Part shown: piece by piece, positions 33,470 through 45,725 of the stretch
How the letters are laid out: the number at the start of each line of letters is the position of its first letter
Position numbering within the stretch: position 1 is the first letter of the stretch
Assembly: GCF_900240295.1 (NCBI RefSeq)
Contig: NZ_OEQB01000008.1
Location: 1-64,000, forward strand
Length of the DNA stretch: 64,000 nucleotides
From: Megasphaera vaginalis (ex Bordigoni et al. 2020)
GTDB taxonomy: Bacteria; Bacillota; Negativicutes; Veillonellales; Megasphaeraceae
Direction: 5' to 3'
The notes under the pieces: model-generated
Seen by the model: the letters and a program-made list of their open reading frames with translations, nothing else
Database searches by the model: none
What the model was told of the DNA's origin: nothing
Position numbers and translations under genes: made by a program

Positions 33470-36400
33470 ATGAAACGACAATGGATCGTGCCGGTCATAG
33501 CCGCCATATGCGTACTCTTTGTTGCGGCCTTTACAGCAGGGAGAGGGCTGTGGCTGCCTCAGGTGACCGCATTGGTGCAAAAAACTGCAAATGAAAGTAT
33601 AAACGGTACGGTATCGTTTGCCGGCTTGGATGTTTCTCTTACCGGTCATGTCATCGTCCGGGAGCCTGTAGTGAAAGATCGGCAGGGACACATTACGGTG
33701 GAAGCGCAGTCTGTCGACATTACGCTGAATCCGCTGCAGCTGCTGCGGCGCAGTCAAACGGCGGCGATCGTCGATACTGTCGACATCAACGGCGCCGTCG
33801 TCCATCTTTGGCAAAATGATCGGACTCAGGCGTGGAATATAGAATCGTTGGTTAAGCCGAACCGGGATCAGACCGATTCCGGTTTTCGCGGTACCGTTAA
33901 CGTTCATGACGGAACCGTGCGCGTGCAGCTTCCCGATTATTCCGTTTTCATCGGCACGAAAATCGAGGGAGCCGTTTCCTTCAGCGATTATCCGGGCCTT
34001 GCTGCCGATGCGACGTTCCTGGCAGATGATCAAAAGATATCGCTGTCCGGGCACTATCGGTCGAAACGGCAGTTCGATCTGACCGTGAATGGGGAGGCCC
34101 TTGAACTGAAGAGGCTCATGCCTTTTATGCCGGCAACGATTGCCGTCAAGATCACGGCAGGCAGGGCGGAACGGATTCGGCTGCGTGCCGTGCAGAGTCA
34201 TAACGGGTTGTCGTTGAGCGGGCAGGCCGATCTCAAGGACGGTGCGGCGCAGGCTTACGGCTGCGAACTGTCGGAACTGTCCGGACGGCTGCAGCTGGAC
34301 GGCCGCGACGTTATTCTGAAACAGCTTACAGGCGCTGTTAACGGTCAGTCCGTTACCGTCGGCGGCGTCATCAAAACGGATACGGGCGCGCCTGTCTTCA
34401 ATCTGGATATTACGGCGCCGCAGCTCTCGGCAGATGCCTTTCGCAGTTTTTTGGCCGATTTGCCGTTAAGCGGTACGGCCGGGTTTACGGGAACCGTTTG
34501 GGGAACCGTCGATAACTTGCGTTTACAGGGAAATGTGACGCTGCATGACGCTTCTTATGACGGCCTTTTGATTGAACATGCCGGCGCCGTTGTCCGGTAT
34601 GACGGACAGCGCGGCAGCCTGGATGATCTGCACGCTGCCGTAGCCGGCGGAACGGTCAGCGGCAGCGGCACATATGACAAAGAAACGGGCGCTGTCGCAG
34701 TGACGGCGCATGCCGATTCCGTCGATTTGAGCCGAATCCCGCAGCTTCCGGTTTCCTTGCTCGGCGTCGTCTCCGGTGACGTGACTCTTGCCGGCAACCT
34801 TAACGATTTGCCGGGCTTGACTGCCAGGGGATCCCTATCGGCCGGGGCGTTGTCGTACGACGGCATAGAAGTCGATTCGGCAGCAGGTGATGTTTTTTAT
34901 CAAGATGGCGTTATTACGTTGCAAAACGGTACGGCTGCCGTCGGCGACGGCGTCATTCATGCAGATGGCGCTTATCATCTGGCGAACGGTGACGGAGCCG
35001 CTTCCTTTACGGCGGAGAAGGTTCCTTTAGCCATTTTCGCTTCTTATTTGGGAACGCCGCTGAGCGGCACCGTTTCGGCGGCAGGGCATATTTCCGGCAG
35101 CGAACCTCGTTGGGACGTTGTCTTTACGGCGTCTTCCGGTGAGGCGGCGGGAATGCCCTTTGATAGGCTTGAAGGTTCTTTACTGGGGACGGGAACTGCC
35201 GTTACGATTCCGCAAGTAGCGTGGTATTATCAGGACGGCAGTCATCAAGCGTCCGGTACGGCGGATCTTGGCAGCCGGCGCCTTGACTTTACGGTACAGA
35301 CGAAGCACATGCGTCTCGAACGGCTTCTGCCGGCTATCGGCAAAGCGGATTTGCCGCTTACCGGCTGGCTTGATAATACGCTGACCGTCAGCGGTACCGT
35401 TGATGACCCGCAGGTCGCGGGGGCGGTGGAACTGACCGACGGTTCGGCAGCAGGTTTTCTGTATCAGCAGGTACGCGCCGATTATCGTTACGCCAACGGG
35501 GTACTTCTGGTTCAGAACGGGATGATTTCCGCTTACGATGCCGTACTGAACGTGGCTGGATCGATCGGCGACGCGCTGGATATCCGGATTTCGGGAAATA
35601 ACCTGGACGTATCGCGGCTCATGCCGCAAGAGGGACCCAAACGGTCAGGGATTCTTGCGGTCGAAGGGCACATCGGCGGTACGCCTGCTGCTCCTGTAGG
35701 TTCGGGCACGATTCGTGCCGACCGGTTGGTCATCAACGATATACCCATTACGGATGTGAGCGGCGATATCGGCTATTTCGGCGGAATTCTGCGTTTGACA
35801 AATTTCCATTTTAAACAAAATAACGGTGTTTATGAAGCCAATCTCAGCCATAATCCCGCTACCGGCTGGATCATGGCAAGAGCTTCCGTAACGGGCGGTG
35901 AACTGGCCGACCTGATCGGTCTGACCACGTTGCCGTTGACGAAGGTCAGCGGTAAATTAGACGGCAAGATAGCGCTCGACGGAACTGTCGACGCGCCGCA
36001 GGTCAAGGTTACGGGAACGATCAGCGGCGGCGTCATGGACGGGTATGCCGTCGCTCCCGCCGATATCAATGTCACCTACGCGGATGATACGCTGCAGATC
36101 AATGCGCTGACCCTTTCCGTCAGCGGCGGCGGTTTATTGGCCGCCAGAGGAACGTACGCTATGCATGGCCCCGTTTCCATGCAGATAGCCGGTAAGAATT
36201 TTCCGTCCCGTATTTTATTGGATGTCTTGGGAAAAGATACTGTTCCCGTCGATACAACGCTCGATTTTGCCGTTGTGCTCAGCGGTACGGGCGACGCTCC
36301 CGATGCCGATATTTCGGCACTTTTGCAAGGCGGTACGATCAACGGCATTTCCTTTACGGAAGCGGCGGGACTGATGAACGTCAAAAACGGCGTGATCGAT

Positions 36401-37756
36401 CTTCACCAGGCCTATATTGCGCGGGACCCGTATCGTGTCAGCGCCTCCGGAAAGATTCCCTTGGCGGCGATCAAAGGGGACGGCGCCGATCAATCTGTCG
36501 ATTTGAATATTAAATTGGATCATGCCGGCTTGGATGCATTGACCTTTTTGACGCCGTTAGTCGAGACTGCCGACGGACCGATGGAAGGGCAGCTGCATTT
36601 GACGGGTAATCTTCTTGCACCGCAAATTAACGGGGCCGTTACGGTTAAAAACGGTTCGGTGAAAATCAAGGGCGTGGCGGATCCCCTGGAAAATATAAGT
36701 GCCGATATTCTTTTTAACGGAACGACGGCGACCGTTTCCAGCCACGGTACGATGGACAAGAGCGGAAAGGCCGACAAGGGATTTTATGACCTGAAAGGCC
36801 AGGTCGGTTGGGACGGTCCGGTTTTGACGAAGTACGAAGGAACGCTGCTGTTCAATCAGCTTCAGTTGGACAGCGATTATTATAAAGGGCCCCTTAACGG
36901 TGAATTGTCGATTACAGCGGGCGAAGCTTTGCCGAAGTTAAGCGGTACCGTTACGGTGGAAAATACGAAACTGGATATTCCGCTGAATTTCGCGTCGGGA
37001 AACAGCGCCGTCGACATGGAACTCGATCTTTCCGTCACGGCCGGAAAGAATGTCCGTTTCTATCATTCCGGCTTGTATGACCTGTTAGTTGACGGTTCCG
37101 TTCATTTCGGCGGGACATTGTCGAATCCCGTTCCGTCCGGGCATTTTGACGTGCAGAGGGGGAACATCCATTACTTGGATACGGATTTCCGTTTGACCAA
37201 AGGCCGCGCCGAATTTACGCAAGAAGGAACGTTGTTGCCGTACATCAATGTCGAAGCTTTCAGCCGCGTCAGTCACTATCGGATCTTTCTGACCCTGCGC
37301 GGCATGGCCGACGCCATGGACCTGATTTTGCGGTCCGATCCGCCGCTGACCAAGCAGCAGATCATCTCCTTGATTACGTTGCATAACGGCAACGGCCATA
37401 ACAGCTCTTTGGACAAAGAAGATCTGTCGGGCCTGCTGGGAACGGGGCTGCGTATGACGCTGAACAGTCTGGGAATTACGGAGGGATTGAAAAACGCCCT
37501 CAAGCTGGATATGCTTACGGTTACGACAGGGTCGCTGGATCTTAACGAGAAGAATGCAAAAGTCGGTGAAAATTATTACAATATTGAAATGGGAAAATAC
37601 TTATTTAACGATTTCATGATAACTGCGGCTTTCGGCTTGAATCATAATGACAACCGTGTCGGTTTGCAGTATGATTTAGGGAGCATGTTCAGTATCAATG
37701 CTTGGAAGTCTGAAGATAACGCTTTTATCGGCGGTATGTACCGCTACACGTTTTAA
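33470..37756 (+). CDS. tamB: TamB/AsmA-like envelope lipid-transfer protein
   Basis: This 1428-residue protein has an N-terminal membrane anchor (VPVIAAICVLFVAAFTAG), a very long run of beta-strand repeats rich in Gly, Thr and Asp, and a C-terminal DUF490 domain (about 1100-1428) ending in MYRYTF. This is the layout of TamB, a bridge-like protein forming a hydrophobic groove from inner to outer membrane. In Negativicutes TamB is thought to be a main route for lipid supply to the outer membrane. CAGGAGAGG precedes the ATG. The sigma-factor gene starts 17 nt after its stop, so the two are likely co-transcribed. Confidence 0.93.
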   Translation: MKRQWIVPVIAAICVLFVAAFTAGRGLWLPQVTALVQKTANESINGTVSFAGLDVSLTGHVIVREPVVKDRQGHITVEAQSVDITLNPLQLLRRSQTAAIVDTVDINGAVVHLWQNDRTQAWNIESLVKPNRDQTDSGFRGTVNVHDGTVRVQLPDYSVFIGTKIEGAVSFSDYPGLAADATFLADDQKISLSGHYRSKRQFDLTVNGEALELKRLMPFMPATIAVKITAGRAERIRLRAVQSHNGLSLSGQADLKDGAAQAYGCELSELSGRLQLDGRDVILKQLTGAVNGQSVTVGGVIKTDTGAPVFNLDITAPQLSADAFRSFLADLPLSGTAGFTGTVWGTVDNLRLQGNVTLHDASYDGLLIEHAGAVVRYDGQRGSLDDLHAAVAGGTVSGSGTYDKETGAVAVTAHADSVDLSRIPQLPVSLLGVVSGDVTLAGNLNDLPGLTARGSLSAGALSYDGIEVDSAAGDVFYQDGVITLQNGTAAVGDGVIHADGAYHLANGDGAASFTAEKVPLAIFASYLGTPLSGTVSAAGHISGSEPRWDVVFTASSGEAAGMPFDRLEGSLLGTGTAVTIPQVAWYYQDGSHQASGTADLGSRRLDFTVQTKHMRLERLLPAIGKADLPLTGWLDNTLTVSGTVDDPQVAGAVELTDGSAAGFLYQQVRADYRYANGVLLVQNGMISAYDAVLNVAGSIGDALDIRISGNNLDVSRLMPQEGPKRSGILAVEGHIGGTPAAPVGSGTIRADRLVINDIPITDVSGDIGYFGGILRLTNFHFKQNNGVYEANLSHNPATGWIMARASVTGGELADLIGLTTLPLTKVSGKLDGKIALDGTVDAPQVKVTGTISGGVMDGYAVAPADINVTYADDTLQINALTLSVSGGGLLAARGTYAMHGPVSMQIAGKNFPSRILLDVLGKDTVPVDTTLDFAVVLSGTGDAPDADISALLQGGTINGISFTEAAGLMNVKNGVIDLHQAYIARDPYRVSASGKIPLAAIKGDGADQSVDLNIKLDHAGLDALTFLTPLVETADGPMEGQLHLTGNLLAPQINGAVTVKNGSVKIKGVADPLENISADILFNGTTATVSSHGTMDKSGKADKGFYDLKGQVGWDGPVLTKYEGTLLFNQLQLDSDYYKGPLNGELSITAGEALPKLSGTVTVENTKLDIPLNFASGNSAVDMELDLSVTAGKNVRFYHSGLYDLLVDGSVHFGGTLSNPVPSGHFDVQRGNIHYLDTDFRLTKGRAEFTQEGTLLPYINVEAFSRVSHYRIFLTLRGMADAMDLILRSDPPLTKQQIISLITLHNGNGHNSSLDKEDLSGLLGTGLRMTLNSLGITEGLKNALKLDMLTVTTGSLDLNEKNAKVGENYYNIEMGKYLFNDFMITAAFGLNHNDNRVGLQYDLGSMFSINAWKSEDNAFIGGMYRYTF

Positions 37757-37772
37757 CTGGGAGGCCGAATCC

Positions 37773-38417
37773 TTGCTGAATGCGTATATGGAGGAACTGC
37801 GAAAAATTTCATTATTGCCGGCAGCGGAAGAAAGGGCGCTTTGGATCGCTTATAAAGATCGGTCTGACGCGGCGGCACGGCGTTGTCTTATCGAGCACTA
37901 TCAGCCCCTTGTTTTCAGAGAGGCTATGCGTTGGCACCTCTCTGCCGACGTATTGGCAGATGCGCTGCAGGAAGGTACGTTGGGACTGATTGAGGCGGTG
38001 GAACGCTATGACTATCGGCGCGGCGTCGCTTTTTCCGTTTTTGCCGTGCATCGTATTCGCGGTGAGATCATTGATTTTCTGAACCGCGAAGGAAAGGGAA
38101 AGGCCGCCTTATCTATTGATGAACCCGATGAAAATGGCATCACGCTGGCCGAATTGCTTTCCGACGGCAGTGAAGATTTGGCCGATCAGACCGGCAGAAA
38201 ACTATTGTTTGAACATGTTTCGGCCATGCTGCCGCGATTGCCGGAAAAAGAAAAATTGGTCGTCGAAGGCGTTTATCTTCATGATCGGCAGCAAAAGCGG
38301 CTGGCAGAAGATCTGGACGTCAGTCTGCCGTATATCTATCGCTTGCAGAAACGGGGCATACGGCGTGTGCGCGGTATGCTGAGCCGTTTTATTCATGAAA
38401 GCAAAAATGATGAGTAA
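37773..38417 (+). CDS. Sigma-70 family RNA polymerase sigma factor
   Basis: This 214-residue sigma factor starts at TTG 37773 behind GGGAGG (37760-37765). Region 2 is clear: EHYQPLVFREAMRWHL, then DALQEGTLGLIEAVERYDYRRGVAFSVFAVHRIRGEIIDFLNR, typical of group 3 (SigF/SigB/FliA-like) factors. Region 4 with a helix-turn-helix is at about 160-205 (LAEDLDVSLPYIYRLQKRGIRRV). It is about 40 residues shorter than the usual group 3 length, so region 3 is reduced. It lies between tamB and the bamA unit, which suggests control of envelope genes; that link is inference. No anti-sigma factor is obvious, though the next gene is a membrane protein. Confidence 0.9.
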   Translation: MLNAYMEELRKISLLPAAEERALWIAYKDRSDAAARRCLIEHYQPLVFREAMRWHLSADVLADALQEGTLGLIEAVERYDYRRGVAFSVFAVHRIRGEIIDFLNREGKGKAALSIDEPDENGITLAELLSDGSEDLADQTGRKLLFEHVSAMLPRLPEKEKLVVEGVYLHDRQQKRLAEDLDVSLPYIYRLQKRGIRRVRGMLSRFIHESKNDE

Positions 38418-38555: not shown

Positions 38556-39119
38556 ATGAGCAAGGCAGACAGCGACAAGGCGACGCGCGTCCGATCGGCA
38601 AAAGAATGGCTGGAAAAAGCGGAACGCTCTTTCAACGATCAGTCCGATATCAAAGGGGAACTGAGTTTACTTTTGGCCGAAGCGGAAATGAAAAACTTGC
38701 GCAAAAATCACGGTGCAGGTCAGAAAGTATTGCGCTTGGGGGCTTTTGGCACGGCGCTTTTCCTTGTTGCGGCTTTTTTCTACCTCTGGCCGGCGCGCGC
38801 GCCGGTTCCGGCCGTACCGCCGCCTGCGGTGCAGTCGGCGAGTGTGGAAAGTGCGGCGGCACGGACGATAAAGAAAGAGTCTGCTCCTGTTCAACCTGCC
38901 CCTTTGCCGGCAGCGGTTCCGCAGCCGCCGCCTCAGGAATCGGAGCCGGTAATTGACGAAAGGGAGACTGTTCCGGCAACCGCTACTGCCGTTATGGCGA
39001 ATTCGGTAGCTGAACAACATAGTAATGAGAGTGCCGGTCAGGCGGTTCTTACGGACCGGCAAGTGGAAGAAGCGGTACAAGCAGGTCGGCATACACTGCG
39101 CAGTACACAGAAAAAATAG
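38556..39119 (+). CDS. Single-pass membrane protein, Pro/Ala-rich, before bamA
   Basis: This 187-residue protein has a cytoplasmic N-terminal part (about 60 residues, with VRSAKEWLEKAERSFNDQSDIKGELSLLLAEAEM), one membrane helix (VLRLGAFGTALFLVAAFFYLW) and a Pro/Ala/Glu-rich periplasmic tail. AAAGGAGAG precedes the ATG. I do not recognise a family. The layout (charged helical N-terminus, one helix, flexible tail) is one that anti-sigma factors can have, and it follows a sigma factor gene by 138 nt. It also precedes bamA by 17 nt. Both links are positional only. Confidence 0.8.
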   Translation: MSKADSDKATRVRSAKEWLEKAERSFNDQSDIKGELSLLLAEAEMKNLRKNHGAGQKVLRLGAFGTALFLVAAFFYLWPARAPVPAVPPPAVQSASVESAAARTIKKESAPVQPAPLPAAVPQPPPQESEPVIDERETVPATATAVMANSVAEQHSNESAGQAVLTDRQVEEAVQAGRHTLRSTQKK

Positions 39120-39136: not shown

Positions 39137-41473
39137 ATGAATACACAGAAGAAAAAACTTCTGACGACAATGATTTTGAGCGCAATGATAACTTGTCCCG
39201 TATGGGCCGAAACAAGCGACGCCGGTACGACGGGGTATGAGCCCTTTGCAGAAGGGCAGAACACGACGGTAAAGGCGGCGGCTCCGCTCCAGGAAAATGA
39301 ACGGGCAGCTGTCAATGCGACGGTTATGGAAAAGACGGATGCTACGGCGACGGCCGCGATGGCAGGTGCGCAATCGGGGCTGACCGGCTACGAAACGCCG
39401 GAAGAATTGGCGGCTATCCAAAACGGCAGCGCCGTTCCCGCGGCGGCAACGACGCCTGCCGCAAGCTCCGCCGCAACGCCTGCGGTAACGACGCCTGCGG
39501 CAACCGCCAACACCGGGCTGACCGGTTACGAAACGCCGGAAGAAATCGCCGCCAGACAAAATGGCGCCACTGCTGCGGCCGCACCGGCTGAGGAGATAGC
39601 TCCGCAGCAGGCTCCGGCAGAAACGGCGACCGAAGAAAATACGGCTGCCGGTGTGCTGGCTGAACCGCCTAAGGGCGCCGTACCCTATATCGGCGGGTTA
39701 GGCGAAGTGCAAGTCGATTCTTCTCTGCCCAAGTACCCGATAGCGATACTTTCACAGGCGCAGGAAGCGGCGTTACCTTACGGCAATTTGGTCAGCGATA
39801 CGGCGATGGCGCCGTATGTCGGCAAGGTTGCCGCATCCGTGGCAATCAGCCCGCTGCCGGATCAGGCGATCGGCGAAAAAATAAAGCCGCGCCTGGCTAT
39901 GCGTGCCGGTGATACGATCGATTTGAATTATTTGCGCCACGACTTGAATGTCATCGGTTCAACGGGGCTGTTTTCCGCTGTCGTGCCGCAAGTCGCGGAA
40001 ATACCGGAAGGCGTTGCGCTGACCTATGCCGTGCAGATGAATCCTATCGTTCACGGCATTGAAATCAAGGGGAATGAATCGATCAAAACGGAAGATCTGA
40101 TGAAGGCGATTCATGTGCAGCCGGAGACCGTTCTGAATTCGACGATTCTCAGCAAGGATGTATATGAAATCAATACGATGTTGGCCAATTCCGGGTATTT
40201 GATGAGCCACATTGATTCCGTTCATATCGACGATCAAGGTATCCTGCACATTGATATGACAGAAGGTCATCTGGAAGATGTCATTGTCAGAGGCAATACG
40301 AAAACGAAGACACGTGTCATTACGCGGGAAATGCGCATGAAGAAAGGCGACGTGTTTAATAAGGCTCAGGCCAGCCGCAGCGTGCAGCGGATTTATAATA
40401 CCGGCTATTTTGAAGACGTCAACGTTCGTCTCCTGCCGGGGCGTAAAAATCAAAATGACGTCATCATGGAAATCGACGTGGCCGAACAGAAAACGGGTAC
40501 CGTTACTATCGGTGCGGGCTATTCCCAGTCAGACGGTCTGGTCGGCATTCTCGGCTTGAGTGAAACGAATCTGCGCGGTACAGGCGATAAGGCGAATATC
40601 AACTGGGAGTTCGGCGGCCATACGCATTCCAAATATAATTATACTTTCGGTTATACGCATCCGTGGCTTAACGATCACGGCGATTCCATCGGATTCAATA
40701 TCTTCAACCGTGAAGGAGAGTACGAAGATTACGATGAAAAGGGGAATTCCGTATCCCAGTATGATAAGAAAACGTCAGGCTTCAATATCACTTACGGCCG
40801 TGTCCGCAGTGAATATGTCAGCGATTTTGTAACGGCAGAGTCGAAAAAGACGGAATATACAGGCTGGGAAGGCAGCGGTTATGACTATAAGGATTATCCC
40901 ACGTATTTAGCAAATAACTTCGGTCGCACGAACAGTCTTTCGTGGTCCCATGTCTATGACAACCGCGATAACGTTTATGACCCGACGTCAGGTAAGCGCC
41001 TCTCCTTTACGACGACTTGGGCCGGGCACGGCTTGGGCGGTGACTTTGATTACTATAAGTTTCTTGCCGAAGAACGGCTCTATTATAAAGTCGGCAGTTC
41101 CCAGGTCATTGCTGTCCGCCTGATGGGCGGGATCGCAGACGGTGATATGCCGTATAATGATCTCTTCACCTTGGGCGGCGCCGATACGCTGCGCGGTTAT
41201 GAAGACGATGAATTCCGCGGCAATAAGATGTATGCCGCGACGATCGAGTACCGGTACCCCATCGTCAAGAAGGTGCAAGGCGTCGTATTTGCCGATGCCG
41301 GTTCGGCATGGGGCGGCACGGAAAATATTCCGTGGTACCATGAAAGCAAAGGGATCCATTATTCCGGCGGTATCGGTTTCCGGGTCACGACGCCGATCGG
41401 GCCGATCCGTCTCGATTACGGTGTAGGTTCTGAAGGCGGCAAGTTCCACTTCAGCTTCGGCGGCAAGTTCTAG
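39137..41473 (+). CDS. bamA: Outer-membrane protein assembly factor BamA
   Basis: This 778-residue Omp85 protein inserts beta-barrels into the outer membrane. After a signal peptide (MILSAMITCPVWA) comes an Ala/Thr/Pro-rich extension to about residue 190 with three TGYE motifs (residues 32, 83 and 129). Three POTRA domains follow (about 200-445), then the 16-strand barrel from about 448. The lid-loop motif is present as TLRGYEDDEF and the chain ends in HFSFGGKF, an aromatic-ended strand. E. coli BamA has five POTRA domains and no such extension. It heads the unit bamA-41482-skp genes-lpxD-lpxL. Confidence 0.96.
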   Translation: MNTQKKKLLTTMILSAMITCPVWAETSDAGTTGYEPFAEGQNTTVKAAAPLQENERAAVNATVMEKTDATATAAMAGAQSGLTGYETPEELAAIQNGSAVPAAATTPAASSAATPAVTTPAATANTGLTGYETPEEIAARQNGATAAAAPAEEIAPQQAPAETATEENTAAGVLAEPPKGAVPYIGGLGEVQVDSSLPKYPIAILSQAQEAALPYGNLVSDTAMAPYVGKVAASVAISPLPDQAIGEKIKPRLAMRAGDTIDLNYLRHDLNVIGSTGLFSAVVPQVAEIPEGVALTYAVQMNPIVHGIEIKGNESIKTEDLMKAIHVQPETVLNSTILSKDVYEINTMLANSGYLMSHIDSVHIDDQGILHIDMTEGHLEDVIVRGNTKTKTRVITREMRMKKGDVFNKAQASRSVQRIYNTGYFEDVNVRLLPGRKNQNDVIMEIDVAEQKTGTVTIGAGYSQSDGLVGILGLSETNLRGTGDKANINWEFGGHTHSKYNYTFGYTHPWLNDHGDSIGFNIFNREGEYEDYDEKGNSVSQYDKKTSGFNITYGRVRSEYVSDFVTAESKKTEYTGWEGSGYDYKDYPTYLANNFGRTNSLSWSHVYDNRDNVYDPTSGKRLSFTTTWAGHGLGGDFDYYKFLAEERLYYKVGSSQVIAVRLMGGIADGDMPYNDLFTLGGADTLRGYEDDEFRGNKMYAATIEYRYPIVKKVQGVVFADAGSAWGGTENIPWYHESKGIHYSGGIGFRVTTPIGPIRLDYGVGSEGGKFHFSFGGKF

Positions 41474-41481
41474 GTTGCCCT

Positions 41482-42777
41482 ATGAAACGGCATATACTAC
41501 GGTGTGTCTTTCTGTTCTTGGTGATGCTGTTCAGCGGCGCCGGCTTGGCTGCCGCCACTGCCGTGACAGCCGTCGACGTTCGCCTTTCCTCTACGGGAGA
41601 GGCGATTCCGCCGTTGGTCGAAAAGCGCATTGCAGCGAGTATTCAGACGATTGGGCGGCATGTGTTTGTCGGCCAGGATGATGGCGTCATAGCGGATCAG
41701 CAAGAGCAATACAGACGCACAGTCAATGATATTGTCAATCGTGTCCTCATCGGGTATACCGTTGAGGACATCCGTATTGCTCCGGGACAGGAGACGGTAT
41801 TAGAAGTGCAGATCCGTCCTTGGGGCGAAACGATTCATGCAGTTCATACGAATTTCGATTTCGGTTCTTTGCCGGCGATGGGAAGAGAGTTGGCGCTGCG
41901 TGATCTGCAAGGTGCCGACACCTTCATCGAACAACTGCTGATCGGCTTGCCTGTCGATGCCCTGGACTGGGCCGGCGGCGCGGCGAAAAGCGTACTGGAA
42001 CAAGAATTGGAAACGATGCTTCCGGAGTTTTATCCGCGCATCATCATCACGCCCGGAGAAGAAGCGACCGTTGCCGTTTATTTTTTGCCGAAGCTGCCTG
42101 TTGTACGCAACGTTTATGTTGATCTTGAAGCGGAAAATTTGCCGAAAATTATTTTTCTCAACGCGCGGCAACAGACGGAACGCCGTTATGGCGGATTAGC
42201 CGGACTGCCTGTTGCCTTCGTACAGCGCCATGCCGGTGATGTGCAGGAGGATTTGCGGAAAACACTGGCATCGCAATGGGTTATCCGCAAGTACAAGCTC
42301 CGCGTTTTGCCGACTGTCGAGATGGGTGAAAACATGCGAATCCATCTTCGTTCAGAAACGGATTTTTATGATATCCAGGCGGCTGCGTACATTGATGTGA
42401 ACCGCCGTGAAGGAGACGGCTACAAGGGTGATGAGAACACGGTACTGAAAGCGCATTTCGGCCGCAAGCTCGGGGTCCATCACGAATTTTACGGTGAAGT
42501 GGAATTCAAGCCTTCGGCGCTGACGTGGAATTTCATTCCCGGTTATTTTTATCGCAGCGGGCCTTTCCGTGCCGGTTACCAGTATGAAACGGAAGACGGC
42601 AGTCATCATCTCTGGCTGCGGCAAGAATTGAACCGACGGTTTTACGGCAGGTATGACCACGATTTGACGCACCACGATAATGAATTCGCACTGGGATATA
42701 AGATCCACGATTATATCGGCTTGGAATATGTCGTTGCCGACCATGATCAGTGGCTTCGTGTGATTGGTTATTTATAA
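41482..42777 (+). CDS. Predicted exported envelope protein next to BamA
   Basis: This 431-residue protein has a signal peptide (CVFLFLVMLFSGAGLAAA). The first half alternates helices and strands in a way that recalls POTRA-like repeats (TVEDIRIAPGQETVLEVQIRPWG, EEATVAVYFLPKLPVVRNVYVDLE). The last ~150 residues are rich in amphipathic strands with aromatic residues, for example FYGEVEFKPSALTWNFIPGYFYRSGPFRAGYQYE and YDHDLTHHDNEFALGYKI. A small outer-membrane barrel is likely. I recognise no named family. It starts 8 nt after bamA with a weak ribosome binding site, so translation is probably coupled to bamA. Confidence 0.82.
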   Translation: MKRHILRCVFLFLVMLFSGAGLAAATAVTAVDVRLSSTGEAIPPLVEKRIAASIQTIGRHVFVGQDDGVIADQQEQYRRTVNDIVNRVLIGYTVEDIRIAPGQETVLEVQIRPWGETIHAVHTNFDFGSLPAMGRELALRDLQGADTFIEQLLIGLPVDALDWAGGAAKSVLEQELETMLPEFYPRIIITPGEEATVAVYFLPKLPVVRNVYVDLEAENLPKIIFLNARQQTERRYGGLAGLPVAFVQRHAGDVQEDLRKTLASQWVIRKYKLRVLPTVEMGENMRIHLRSETDFYDIQAAAYIDVNRREGDGYKGDENTVLKAHFGRKLGVHHEFYGEVEFKPSALTWNFIPGYFYRSGPFRAGYQYETEDGSHHLWLRQELNRRFYGRYDHDLTHHDNEFALGYKIHDYIGLEYVVADHDQWLRVIGYL

Positions 42778-42805: not shown

Positions 42806-43291
42806 ATGATGTCAGAAATGGGTAAGAAAAAAAATGTTAAAATATTTTCTGCTGCTGTAGCGTTTATTTTTGTCTTGAGCGTTGCCGCAATCGCCATCAT
42901 GCAGACCGGGAATCCCGTCAATGCCGCGCCGTCGAGCAATATCGGTGTTGTTGATATGAGCAAAGTATTTTCTCCGGACAGCGAAGACTTGGCGAATGCA
43001 CAAAAACAATATCAGGCGGCTTCACAGGAAATGCAGCAGAAATTTGAAAGTCAGTCCGCCAATATGACTGATGAACAGAAACAGCAACTTTATTTGCAGA
43101 TGCAACAGGAAATGTCACAGAAACAGGAAGAAATTCAAAAGGGGCTGCAAGATAAGGTTGACAGCGCCGTCAGTGATGTTGCCAATACGAAGAGCCTGAG
43201 CCTCGTCGTCGATAAACGCGTCGTTCTTTACGGCGGGACGGATATTACGGAACAGGTAGCCAAAAAATTGAGCGGTTCTTCTTCGCAGTAA
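42806..43291 (+). CDS. Skp/OmpH-family periplasmic chaperone (copy 1)
   Basis: This 161-residue protein has an N-terminal hydrophobic segment (IFSAAVAFIFVLSVAAIAIM) with a possible cleavage site near NAA. The OmpH family start is GVVDMSKVF, then a Gln/Met/Glu-rich coiled coil (about 65-125) and the end SLVVDKRVVLYGGTDITEQVAKKL. Skp trimers hold unfolded outer-membrane proteins in a tentacle cage. ATG 42806 follows AGGAGA at good distance. It is the first of three related genes in a row. Confidence 0.9.
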   Translation: MMSEMGKKKNVKIFSAAVAFIFVLSVAAIAIMQTGNPVNAAPSSNIGVVDMSKVFSPDSEDLANAQKQYQAASQEMQQKFESQSANMTDEQKQQLYLQMQQEMSQKQEEIQKGLQDKVDSAVSDVANTKSLSLVVDKRVVLYGGTDITEQVAKKLSGSSSQ

Positions 43292-43304
43292 GCAAGGCGA
43301 TCGT

Positions 43305-44252
43305 ATGAGACGGAAATATGCAGTTGTTCTGGGCGTATTGATCATTGCGGCTATCGTTGCTGCCGGTATTTGGTATTCGTATGCTCGCGGCGCGGTTTTT
43401 TCCAAAGCGACCGCTTCTTCCGCACGGGGCCTTACGTATGCATACGTTGACTTGGAGCATGTCGTTATGAGCCATCCGCGCTACAGTACGTATCATCGCC
43501 TGGAGATGGAATATAATTCGCTGTTGGCACAGTATCGCTTTGAGCAGTGGAATTATTCGCGGCAGGCTTCGTTGGCCGATAAAGCGCTGGATAAATTTGC
43601 GCTTACCGACGGACTGGCCGGCGCCGCCTTAGATCAGGAGCTGCAGGCCAAAGTGGCAATTAAACAGACTGAACTGAATGACCGTTTACAGCGTCGTTAT
43701 GAGGAACTGATGAAGGCTCACCGGAAAAACGGGCCGTTATTAACGGAAGAAGAGAATTTGCGCGTCGTTAATTTGCAGTTGAAATTACAGACGGCTTCTC
43801 TTACTGCGGCAGAGCGGCAGGCGGTTCAGGCGGAATTGCAGGGATTGCTGCAAAAAAGCGACAAGACGAGCGCTGATGCGGCGGTGCCGGAAGACGTGAC
43901 GACGGCGATGGCGGCAGAGAAGGAAAAAGCCGCTGCGGAGCTGACGGCCTATGCCGAAGATGTAAAGAAAGAATTGCAACAGCGCCGTGACGACGGTCAC
44001 GAACTTTTTGCCGCGCAGATGGGAGCTTTGGGCGAGCGGCCGGATCCGTCTGTTTGGAACAATGAGTGGAAGGAAAAGTTGGAAGCTAAAGAAGGGGAAA
44101 TGAAGGCGGAAAAAGAGGCCATCATGACCGATATCCGTGAAAAAGCGGCCGCCGTTGCCGAAGAGCAGGGGATTGATATGGTTTTCAGCGAATACTTGGG
44201 CACCGGCACGGCGTTGGATATAACGGATGACATTATTGCCAGACTGGCATAA
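43305..44252 (+). CDS. Membrane-anchored Skp-like coiled-coil protein (copy 2)
   Basis: This 315-residue protein starts with a membrane helix (VVLGVLIIAAIVAAGIWYSYA) and has long charged helical stretches (about 60-260). The start of the mature part, LTYAYVDLEHVVMSHP, matches the GVVDMSKVF start of OmpH proteins. The end, IDMVFSEYLGTGTALDITDDIIARL, matches the last strand and helix of the other two copies. So it is an OmpH-type protein with the coiled-coil arms roughly twice as long. The helix lacks a clear cleavage site, so it may stay bound to the inner membrane. It lies 13 nt after copy 1. Confidence 0.82.
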   Translation: MRRKYAVVLGVLIIAAIVAAGIWYSYARGAVFSKATASSARGLTYAYVDLEHVVMSHPRYSTYHRLEMEYNSLLAQYRFEQWNYSRQASLADKALDKFALTDGLAGAALDQELQAKVAIKQTELNDRLQRRYEELMKAHRKNGPLLTEEENLRVVNLQLKLQTASLTAAERQAVQAELQGLLQKSDKTSADAAVPEDVTTAMAAEKEKAAAELTAYAEDVKKELQQRRDDGHELFAAQMGALGERPDPSVWNNEWKEKLEAKEGEMKAEKEAIMTDIREKAAAVAEEQGIDMVFSEYLGTGTALDITDDIIARLA

Positions 44253-44266
44253 CAGGAGGCTTATTG

Positions 44267-44686
44267 ATGAAGAAATCAGGAAAACGATTAGCGGCGGCAG
44301 CACTTTTCATGCTGACGACAGCATTGTTGTCAGGTTGCGGCGGTGAAGATAAAGTCGGCGTCGTCGACATGACGCGGGTACAAAAGGAAGCGCCTATTGT
44401 TCAGCAATATAAGCAGAAGACCGATGAAAAACGGGAAGCTGCCAATAAAGAGCTGCAGGAAGCGCAACAATCCATGTCGGCAGAGGATTTTCAGAAAAAG
44501 GAACAGCAAGTCAAGCAGGAATTAAATATTTATGCTGCCAGCATGCAGCGTCAATTTTTATCGGATATGCAAAGCAAACTCGGTGATATTGCCAAGGAAA
44601 AGAATGTCGGTATCGTTGTCGTGAAGTCTGCCGTTCCGCAAGGCGGTATCGATGTGACGGACGATTTGATCGCGAAGATGAAGTAA
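44267..44686 (+). CDS. Skp/OmpH-family lipoprotein (copy 3)
   Basis: This 139-residue protein has a lipoprotein signal peptide with lipobox LLSGC (cysteine near residue 24). The mature part is a compact OmpH domain: KVGVVDMTRVQKEAP, a Gln/Glu-rich helical hairpin (about 45-105), then VGIVVVKSAVPQGGIDVTDDLIAKM. It would be lipid-anchored, unlike classical soluble Skp. CAGGAGG gives ATG 44267 a good site. It lies directly before lpxD, as skp does in Proteobacteria. Confidence 0.9.
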   Translation: MKKSGKRLAAAALFMLTTALLSGCGGEDKVGVVDMTRVQKEAPIVQQYKQKTDEKREAANKELQEAQQSMSAEDFQKKEQQVKQELNIYAASMQRQFLSDMQSKLGDIAKEKNVGIVVVKSAVPQGGIDVTDDLIAKMK

Positions 44687-44702
44687 AAAGGAGTTGTACA
44701 TC

Positions 44703-45725
44703 GTGAAAAAAACAGTACGCGAATTGGCACAATTGCTGAATGGATCCGTTGTTGGCGATGAAACCAGGGAAGTCAGTGATGTAAAGGGACTGGCAGAGGC
44801 CGGCGTAAGCGACGTCACCTTTGCCGTCGATCCCTATACGGAATATTTGCCGCAGATTCATGCCGGCGTTATTATCGTCGAAAAAGAAGTGCCTGCCGGC
44901 GACAATACGCTGATCGTCGTTGCTAATCCCCGCTTGGCTTTTTCGCAGCTCCTCGTGCTTTTTCATCCGCGTCAATCCGTTGTTGAAGGGATTCATCCGA
45001 CGGCCGTTATCGGCGAAGATACACAGCTTGGCAGCGGTACTGCCGTAATGGCTTATGCCGTTATCGGCAAAAATGTACAGATCGGCGCCGATTGCACGAT
45101 ATATCCCTTTGTCTTTATTGGCGATCAGGTAACGATCGGCAGCGGTTCCACTATTTATCCCGGCGCCGTTATTCATGAAAACAGTGTTCTCGGCGAACGG
45201 GCCGTTATTCGGGCTCATGCCGTTATCGGCGGAGAAGGGTTCGGGTTCGCGACGAACGAAGGCAAACATACACGGATTCCTCAGATCGGGAATGTAGCTA
45301 TCGGTGACGATGTGGAAATCGGAGCCTGTACGACGATCGATAACGCCACGCTGGAGAGTACCAAAATCGGCAGCGGTACAAAAATCGATAATCTCGTCCA
45401 TTTGGGGCATAATGTCGAAATCGGTGAAGATTGTTTTCTCATTGCGCAGACCGGGATCGCCGGCAGCACGAAGGCGGGGAACCATGTCATTTTCGCCGGA
45501 CAGACAGGCTGTACCGGTCATGTTACCATCGGCGACAACGCCGTCTTTGCCGGTAAATCGGGCATCGTCGGCAATATCAAGGCGAATACGGTCAACGCCG
45601 GTTTTCCGGCACGTCCTCATATTGAATGGAGCCGGATGCAAGTCCACTTAAAGCGGCTGCCGGAAATGGCAAAGACGATTAAGGCGTTGGAAGCCCGGTT
45701 GGCAGCTTTGGAAAAAAAGGATTGA
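44703..45725 (+). CDS. lpxD: UDP-3-O-acylglucosamine N-acyltransferase
   Basis: This 340-residue enzyme adds the N-linked acyl chain in lipid A synthesis. The N-terminal uridine-binding domain is at about 1-100, followed by a left-handed beta-helix of hexapeptide repeats (about 105-300) and a short C-terminal helix. The conserved histidine region is NLVHLGHNVEIG and GGEGFGFA is typical. GTG 44703 lies 9 nt after AAGGAG. The presence of lpxD and an lpxL-type gene indicates that lipopolysaccharide is made. LpxA, LpxC and FabZ genes are not in the window. Confidence 0.95.
   Translation: MKKTVRELAQLLNGSVVGDETREVSDVKGLAEAGVSDVTFAVDPYTEYLPQIHAGVIIVEKEVPAGDNTLIVVANPRLAFSQLLVLFHPRQSVVEGIHPTAVIGEDTQLGSGTAVMAYAVIGKNVQIGADCTIYPFVFIGDQVTIGSGSTIYPGAVIHENSVLGERAVIRAHAVIGGEGFGFATNEGKHTRIPQIGNVAIGDDVEIGACTTIDNATLESTKIGSGTKIDNLVHLGHNVEIGEDCFLIAQTGIAGSTKAGNHVIFAGQTGCTGHVTIGDNAVFAGKSGIVGNIKANTVNAGFPARPHIEWSRMQVHLKRLPEMAKTIKALEARLAALEKKD

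Follow-up and report, generated by a model that had tools for sequence, protein, structure and literature searches.

Most of what is known about the periplasmic transit of outer-membrane proteins comes from E. coli, in which both SurA and a single free periplasmic Skp diffuse. The Skp of that organism (OmpH family; structures 1u2m and 1sg2) consists of a small body with long helical arms. An OmpH triplet in diderm Firmicutes is already in print (Antunes 2016; Poppleton 2017): in V. parvula, vpar_0528-30 form a triplet behind bamA and vpar_1840 is one extra, unlinked Skp (PMC5491611), although the available parts of that description do not mention anchors, long arms or a class-wide fixed order. 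Bacteroidota encode two Skp paralogues, SkpA and SkpB of the extended type 9 (T9SS) translocon (8gl8), in one operon but with different roles; skpA lies at the bamA locus, and its product exceeds E. coli Skp in length (PMC10994853, PMC12611786). These bacteria are an earlier-known case of Skp paralogues at a bamA locus that have taken on separate and even structural roles. A functional parallel is V. parvula MlaD, a long inner-membrane-anchored protein that does the job of the diffusing proteobacterial MlaC (PMC10665443), although it is an unrelated protein whose cargo is lipid rather than protein. Terrabacterial diderms are reported to have neither Lol nor BAM accessory lipoproteins, and canonical SurA was not found in the genomes searched here. 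If the Skps of these bacteria were tethered to the inner membrane, the organization of their protein delivery would differ from that of E. coli.

We analyzed a window of 64,000 nucleotides from Megasphaera vaginalis (a genome of 2.2 Mb in 17 contigs, whose nearest named relatives are Megasphaera species), in which three OmpH genes lie behind bamA. The features are as follows.

33470..37756, + strand: TamB (Pfam TamB, 8.1e-45).
37698-38417, + strand: sigma-70-family gene.
38556-39119, + strand: single-pass membrane protein of 187 aa, without a Pfam match.
39137..41473, + strand: BamA, an Omp85 barrel with POTRA domains (Pfam Omp85 7e-51 and POTRA 1.4e-28; NCBIfam TIGR03303 2.2e-88).
41482-42777, + strand: protein of 431 aa, without a Pfam match.
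42806..43291, + strand: OmpH1, 161 aa, short-armed OmpH/Skp paralogue at position 1 (Pfam OmpH 3e-14, 53.9 bits).
42842..42901, + strand: N-terminal helix of OmpH1 (about residues 13-32), hydrophobic and conserved, which may be an uncleaved anchor (hydropathy, N-terminal identity).
43305..44252, + strand: OmpH2, 315 aa, long-armed OmpH/Skp paralogue at position 2 (Pfam OmpH 7.6e-7; AlphaFold2 mean pLDDT 88.7; VIA Z 11.6 to 1u2m).
43317..43382, + strand: predicted transmembrane anchor of OmpH2, about residues 5-26 (model helix 2-32; hydropathy and alignment).
43482..43730, + strand: predicted outgoing arm helix of OmpH2, residues 60-142, 83 residues (AlphaFold2 secondary structure).
43746..43865, + strand: predicted arm tip of OmpH2, helices 148-162 and 168-187 (AlphaFold2 secondary structure).
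43890..44168, + strand: predicted returning arm of OmpH2, helices 196-243 and 248-288 (AlphaFold2 secondary structure).
44267..44686, + strand: OmpH3, 139 aa, short-armed lipoprotein OmpH/Skp paralogue at position 3 (Pfam OmpH 4.7e-8, 33.8 bits).
44327..44338, + strand: lipobox of OmpH3, LSGC (LLSGC in the sequence), with its Cys conserved across the class.
44694-45725, + strand: gene resembling lpxD (hexapeptide repeats, by eye), directly after OmpH3.

The three OmpH open reading frames (ORFs) are separated by gaps of 13-14 nt, with ribosome-binding sites visible in the sequence; OmpH1 starts at an ATG with AAGGAG upstream. An additional, unlinked OmpH is encoded on another contig of the same genome (C4:142360-142695). 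The arrangement thus differs from that of E. coli in having three linked copies that are anchored or anchor-like, one of them with arms of roughly double length, and a further, unlinked copy of the soluble type. The triplet of V. parvula SKV38 is arranged behind bamA as in the window. Our searches of the open-access literature found no account of the anchors of the triplet, their interchange or the long arms; what is new here is the anatomy of the triplet (order, anchors, and arms), while the triplet itself was known.

The sequence-only reading had described a tandem Skp-like trio, and a structural model, a protein tree and, for two of the copies, Pfam bear this out. OmpH1 and OmpH3 scored above the curated cutoff of Pfam OmpH (PF03938; 32.4 bits), and OmpH1 also matched E. 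coli Skp 1sg2 (phmmer against PDB, E value of 0.0019). OmpH2 fell just below the cutoff at 29.9 bits, and 31 of its 63 orthologues matched Pfam OmpH at an E value of ≤0.001; in profile matches of OmpH2, apolipoprotein coils compete with OmpH. An AlphaFold2 model of OmpH2, computed as a single chain with the 63 orthologues (pTM of 0.56), places a long helical hairpin between an N-terminal strand and a C-terminal strand/helix, which together form the body. The best four VIA matches of this model were all Skp/OmpH structures (1u2m, Z of 11.6; 1sg2, 11.1; 8gl8_C, which is SkpA, 10.9; 4kqt, 9.7), with rmsd values of 3.2 to 4.8 over 106 to 143 residues, and coiled coils reached at most 9.3, in a match list from which a family may be missing without thereby being excluded. 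Foldseek E values for the model were weak (best, 0.06). We rejected the alternative of an unrelated coiled coil for OmpH2 because Skp structures ranked above coiled coils in the VIA comparison. The predicted fold of copy 2 is therefore that of Skp, and in the OmpH tree both copy 2 and copy 3 cluster with their class-wide orthologues, so that the relatedness of both to OmpH, on which the earlier reading depended, stands.

That the arms of copy 2 are about twice those of copies 1 and 3, as had also been proposed, is supported by the model and by protein lengths. In the model, the order of elements is an anchor helix (residues 2-32), a strand (45-47), the arms, a second strand (292-294), and a helix (307-314); at 1.5 Å per residue, the outgoing helix would measure ~124 Å. 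Median lengths for positions 1, 2, and 3 were 159, 312.5, and 141 aa, respectively (92 loci), with ranges that are rough because some ORF starts are misplaced (e.g., in L044, L058, L098, and L102). The anchor leads straight into the body, so, judging from Skp structures, the arms of OmpH2 should point away from the membrane. The extra length of Bacteroidota SkpA, in contrast, is reported as a C-terminal extension of a periplasmic protein (PMC10994853, PMC12611786).

The triplet was examined at 100 Negativicutes bamA neighborhoods and the window (101 loci). Exactly three OmpH ORFs lay behind bamA at 92 of them, and the short-long-short order was likewise found at 92 of 101; two loci had two ORFs and seven had none. 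The long middle copy is the one missing from the two-copy loci, which belong to M. hutchinsoni (L050/L173) and to L118. In the 1.3-Mb genome of L118 (G105), a whole-genome search recovered copies 1 and 3 alone, without an unlinked OmpH. Where the triplet was absent, L084 and L127 each represent a second Omp85 locus in a genome that carries a triplet at its other Omp85 locus, and at L085, L091, and L099 the contig ends close behind bamA. The OmpH matches for L124 and L139 are grouped away from bamA, as a short, a long (344-aa frame), and a short copy on G111:C22 and as two short copies ~1.5 kb apart on G154:C17. A set of named Negativicutes, which shares genomes with the first set and is not added to it, had three copies at 74 of 79 loci. 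tamB lay upstream of the bamA locus at 90 of 93 loci. Outside the class but within the phylum, 20 bamA loci had three copies in 4 cases, two in 7, one in 7, and none in 2. Four loci outside the class (L145, L146, L147, and L149) have a long OmpH copy of 222 to 613 aa, with uncertain starts.

A tree of 217 OmpH proteins (58 genera per position, 33 outgroup proteins, and 10 unlinked copies) partitioned positions 1, 2, and 3 with two changes, which is the minimum; it was built on 117 columns, and many of its forks are unresolved. Outgroup second copies fell on the position 2 side, and two outgroup third copies fell with position 3. By this sequence tree, the three positions are ancient paralogues that specialized long ago. 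The unlinked OmpH copies and the reduced genomes show turnover among OmpH copies.

Anchors were called by hydropathy and sequence patterns. The lipobox claimed for copy 3 is real and its Cys is present at 94 of 94 Negativicutes loci, a count that includes ten rows that failed the automatic post-cysteine hydropathy rule and in which a plain lipobox is visible. Position 2 carries either a lipobox (48 of 92 loci) or a transmembrane helix (44 of 92), and all 92 have one or the other. These counts follow four hand corrections (L045, L046, L137, and L113): a Cys within the hydrophobic core was not counted as a lipobox in L045 and L046, and L137 was treated as transmembrane. On the BamA tree, the position 2 label requires at least 5 changes (6 with L113 labeled as transmembrane), compared to a mean of 31.2 for shuffled labels. 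In family f12, copy 2 has 11 to 35 residues ahead of the transmembrane helix, which is how a type II anchor, unlike a signal peptide, typically begins; we take this family to be Selenomonadaceae, since six of six named Selenomonadaceae copies are also of the nonlipobox kind. Position 3 of outgroup triplets has a transmembrane helix in three of four cases and a lipobox in one. Lipid anchors and transmembrane helices replace one another within the class at position 2 and between classes at position 3, which suggests that attachment is kept while its chemistry changes. The claim of three kinds of membrane attachment is thus accurate as a snapshot of the window's own lineage, but it does not hold as a rule, since the anchor type of copy 2 varies between lineages. 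At the sequence level, neither copy 2 nor copy 3 has the cleavable signal without an anchor that characterizes a canonical soluble Skp.

Position 1 is less clear-cut. Its most hydrophobic 19-residue stretch has a median hydropathy of 2.66 (94 loci), compared to 2.35 for position 2 proteins of the transmembrane type and 1.74 for the unlinked OmpH (20 loci), all 20 of which have a short, signal-like N terminus running straight into the first strand. Identity within the N terminus versus the mature part is 0.427 versus 0.462 at position 1, 0.282 versus 0.390 at position 3, and 0.167 versus 0.247 at position 2, and one Phe in the position 1 N terminus is kept in 89 of 94 proteins. Because this N terminus is unusually hydrophobic and nearly as conserved as the mature part, it may be an uncleaved anchor. 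A loose AxA-like pattern is nevertheless present in 80 of 94 copy 1 proteins (it is absent from the listed Veillonella-type sequences of groups g5 and g11), and by that pattern most of them could be cleaved. The description of copy 1 as signal-like therefore holds for a hydrophobic N terminus, but this segment is more hydrophobic and more conserved than an ordinary signal peptide.

In the Acidaminococcaceae-like family f16, copy 1 has a lipobox-like Cys inside the hydrophobic N terminus (e.g., IFVLGC; loci L104, L110, L115, L118, L121, L132, L134, and L137). Copy 1 of f16 may be lipidated; the Cys sits in the hydrophobic core, where we treat the automatic lipobox call as an error. A position 1 lipobox called in L086 was false and arose from an upstream extension of the ORF.

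Which membrane holds the lipid anchors bears on any mechanism. LolA was found in none of 120 Negativicutes genomes, with a positive E. coli control, and Lgt is present in the window's own genome. The available part of a V. parvula study likewise reports that no outer-membrane lipoproteins or Lol homologues were identified (PMC10665443). Together with the interchange of lipid and transmembrane anchors, which points to a shared (inner) membrane for copies 2 and 3 and not to separate stations, these results favor the inner membrane, where the lipid anchors probably stay. Opposing this is the only localization datum that we found: all four V. parvula Skp proteins were reported in the outer-membrane fraction (PMC5491611). 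TamB was in the same fraction, so the fractions may be mixed. No SurA_N match above the cutoff was obtained in 60 genomes (one weak match lay below it), and Skp-type proteins may therefore bear more of the chaperone load than they do in E. coli.

We favor, at a probability of about one-half, a reading in which the ancient OmpH/Skp paralogues are inner-membrane-tethered holdases that catch barrels at Sec and present them to BamA. The copies would not diffuse but would be attached on the periplasmic side of the inner membrane, with lipidated copies retained there, and each would form a trimeric jellyfish with its body near the membrane and its arms outward. Unfolded barrels would be caught as they exit Sec, copy 2 would serve larger or longer clients or reach further, and clients would then be presented to the single BamA; the unlinked OmpH would act as a free Skp. 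The tether and the arms are drawn from sequence and models, and the remainder of this mechanism is drawn from established Skp knowledge. The absence of copy 2 from two small genomes, where it must be dispensable, counts against such a tethered array. In E. coli, Skp can cause barrels to be inserted wrongly, into the inner membrane (PMC4817254); a membrane-bound Skp would then be a hazard, and a tethered Skp would need control. The available text of a 2026 review states that no direct contact between Skp and BAM has been demonstrated (PMC13067283). A broader version, in which outer-membrane protein passage in diderm Bacillota is tethered and nondiffusive and an anchored array of three Skps, with the long arms of copy 2 extending far across the periplasm, bridges Sec to BamA and replaces SurA, is offered tentatively and is in our estimate doubtful; such a fixed bridge would resemble the bridge-type MlaD found in these bacteria. 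The genetic tractability of V. parvula makes the tether idea directly testable.

Other explanations place the copies elsewhere or give them other work. The outer-membrane fraction data would fit BAM accessory lipoproteins that replace BamB-E, with the lipid-anchored copies arriving at the outer membrane through some uncharacterized pathway and copy 2 spanning from the inner membrane. The genes lie directly behind bamA, and BamBCDE homologues were reportedly not found in diderm Firmicutes (PMC5007114). We consider this explanation unlikely: the Lol delivery route expected of BAM accessory lipoproteins is not represented by LolA in any of the genomes searched, and lipid anchors interchange with transmembrane helices, which cannot place a protein in the outer membrane. 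A purely structural role, in which the paralogues are parts of an envelope-spanning BamA-TamB machine and not holdases, draws on the Flavobacterium type 9 translocon, where SkpA, the third-ranking VIA match of copy 2, serves as a scaffold and shares its operon with a second, essential Skp (PMC10994853). The conserved linkage to tamB and bamA is in keeping with such a machine. Copies 1 and 3 are of ordinary Skp size, however, and the copies show turnover; we consider a structural machine quite improbable.

The sequence-only reading had itself inferred a relay or mixed oligomers moving barrels from the inner membrane to BamA. Its foundation, three specialized and mostly membrane-attached OmpH paralogues beside a single BamA, survives, but the relay as proposed is not supported: no LolA was found in 120 genomes of the class, anchors switch type, and copies 2 and 3, being probably on one membrane, would offer no gradient of stations. 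Close spacing of the tandem genes and body elements common to both ends of each protein are what handover from copy to copy, or heterotrimers, would lead one to expect. A 2-fold difference in arm length, on the other hand, would make mixed cages uneven, and two genomes have lost copy 2 while keeping copies 1 and 3, so that a three-step relay is not obligatory; we regard both forms of the idea as very unlikely. Simple redundancy, with three plain soluble Skps in the periplasm that have long or unusual signal peptides and no functional tether, would account for the AxA-like pattern in most copy 1 proteins. It is hard to reconcile with the invariant lipobox of position 3, the lipobox or transmembrane-like segment in every copy 2, the cytoplasmic tail ahead of the copy 2 helix in family f12, and an unlinked copy that shows what an ordinary signal looks like in these bacteria, and we give it very little credence.

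Three further genes surround bamA. At 93 Negativicutes loci with enough flanking sequence, the sigma gene, the 187-aa membrane protein, and the 431-aa protein were all present at 78, all absent at 12, and partly present at 3. The sigma gene showed 9 independent differences on the BamA tree, of which 8 were shared with the 431-aa gene and none were opposite (sign test, P = 0.0078); for the 187-aa membrane protein, 8 of 8 were shared. The 187-aa protein has a conserved cytosolic N terminus (GELNLMLAQAEM consensus), one membrane span, a variable Pro-rich periplasmic stretch, and a conserved C-terminal motif, AGxxLRGQ, a layout that from sequence would suit an anti-sigma factor. The 431-aa protein lies behind bamA at 83 of 101 Negativicutes loci by profile; a profile search of PDB gave no match, but its model (pLDDT of 92.6) has three POTRA-like repeats and a ten-stranded barrel, with Foldseek similarity to TamA/BamA (7e-11) and a VIA match of the barrel to the designed TMB10_163 (Z of 13.6). 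Its predicted layout is that of an Omp85-like protein with a small barrel. We found no account of this module around bamA in the open-access literature. A reasonable guess is that a sigma/anti-sigma pair and an outer-membrane sensor are built around bamA as a candidate envelope-stress sensing module. The module's genes lie on either side of bamA, are gained or lost as a set, and have been lost in the Veillonella-type group g5.
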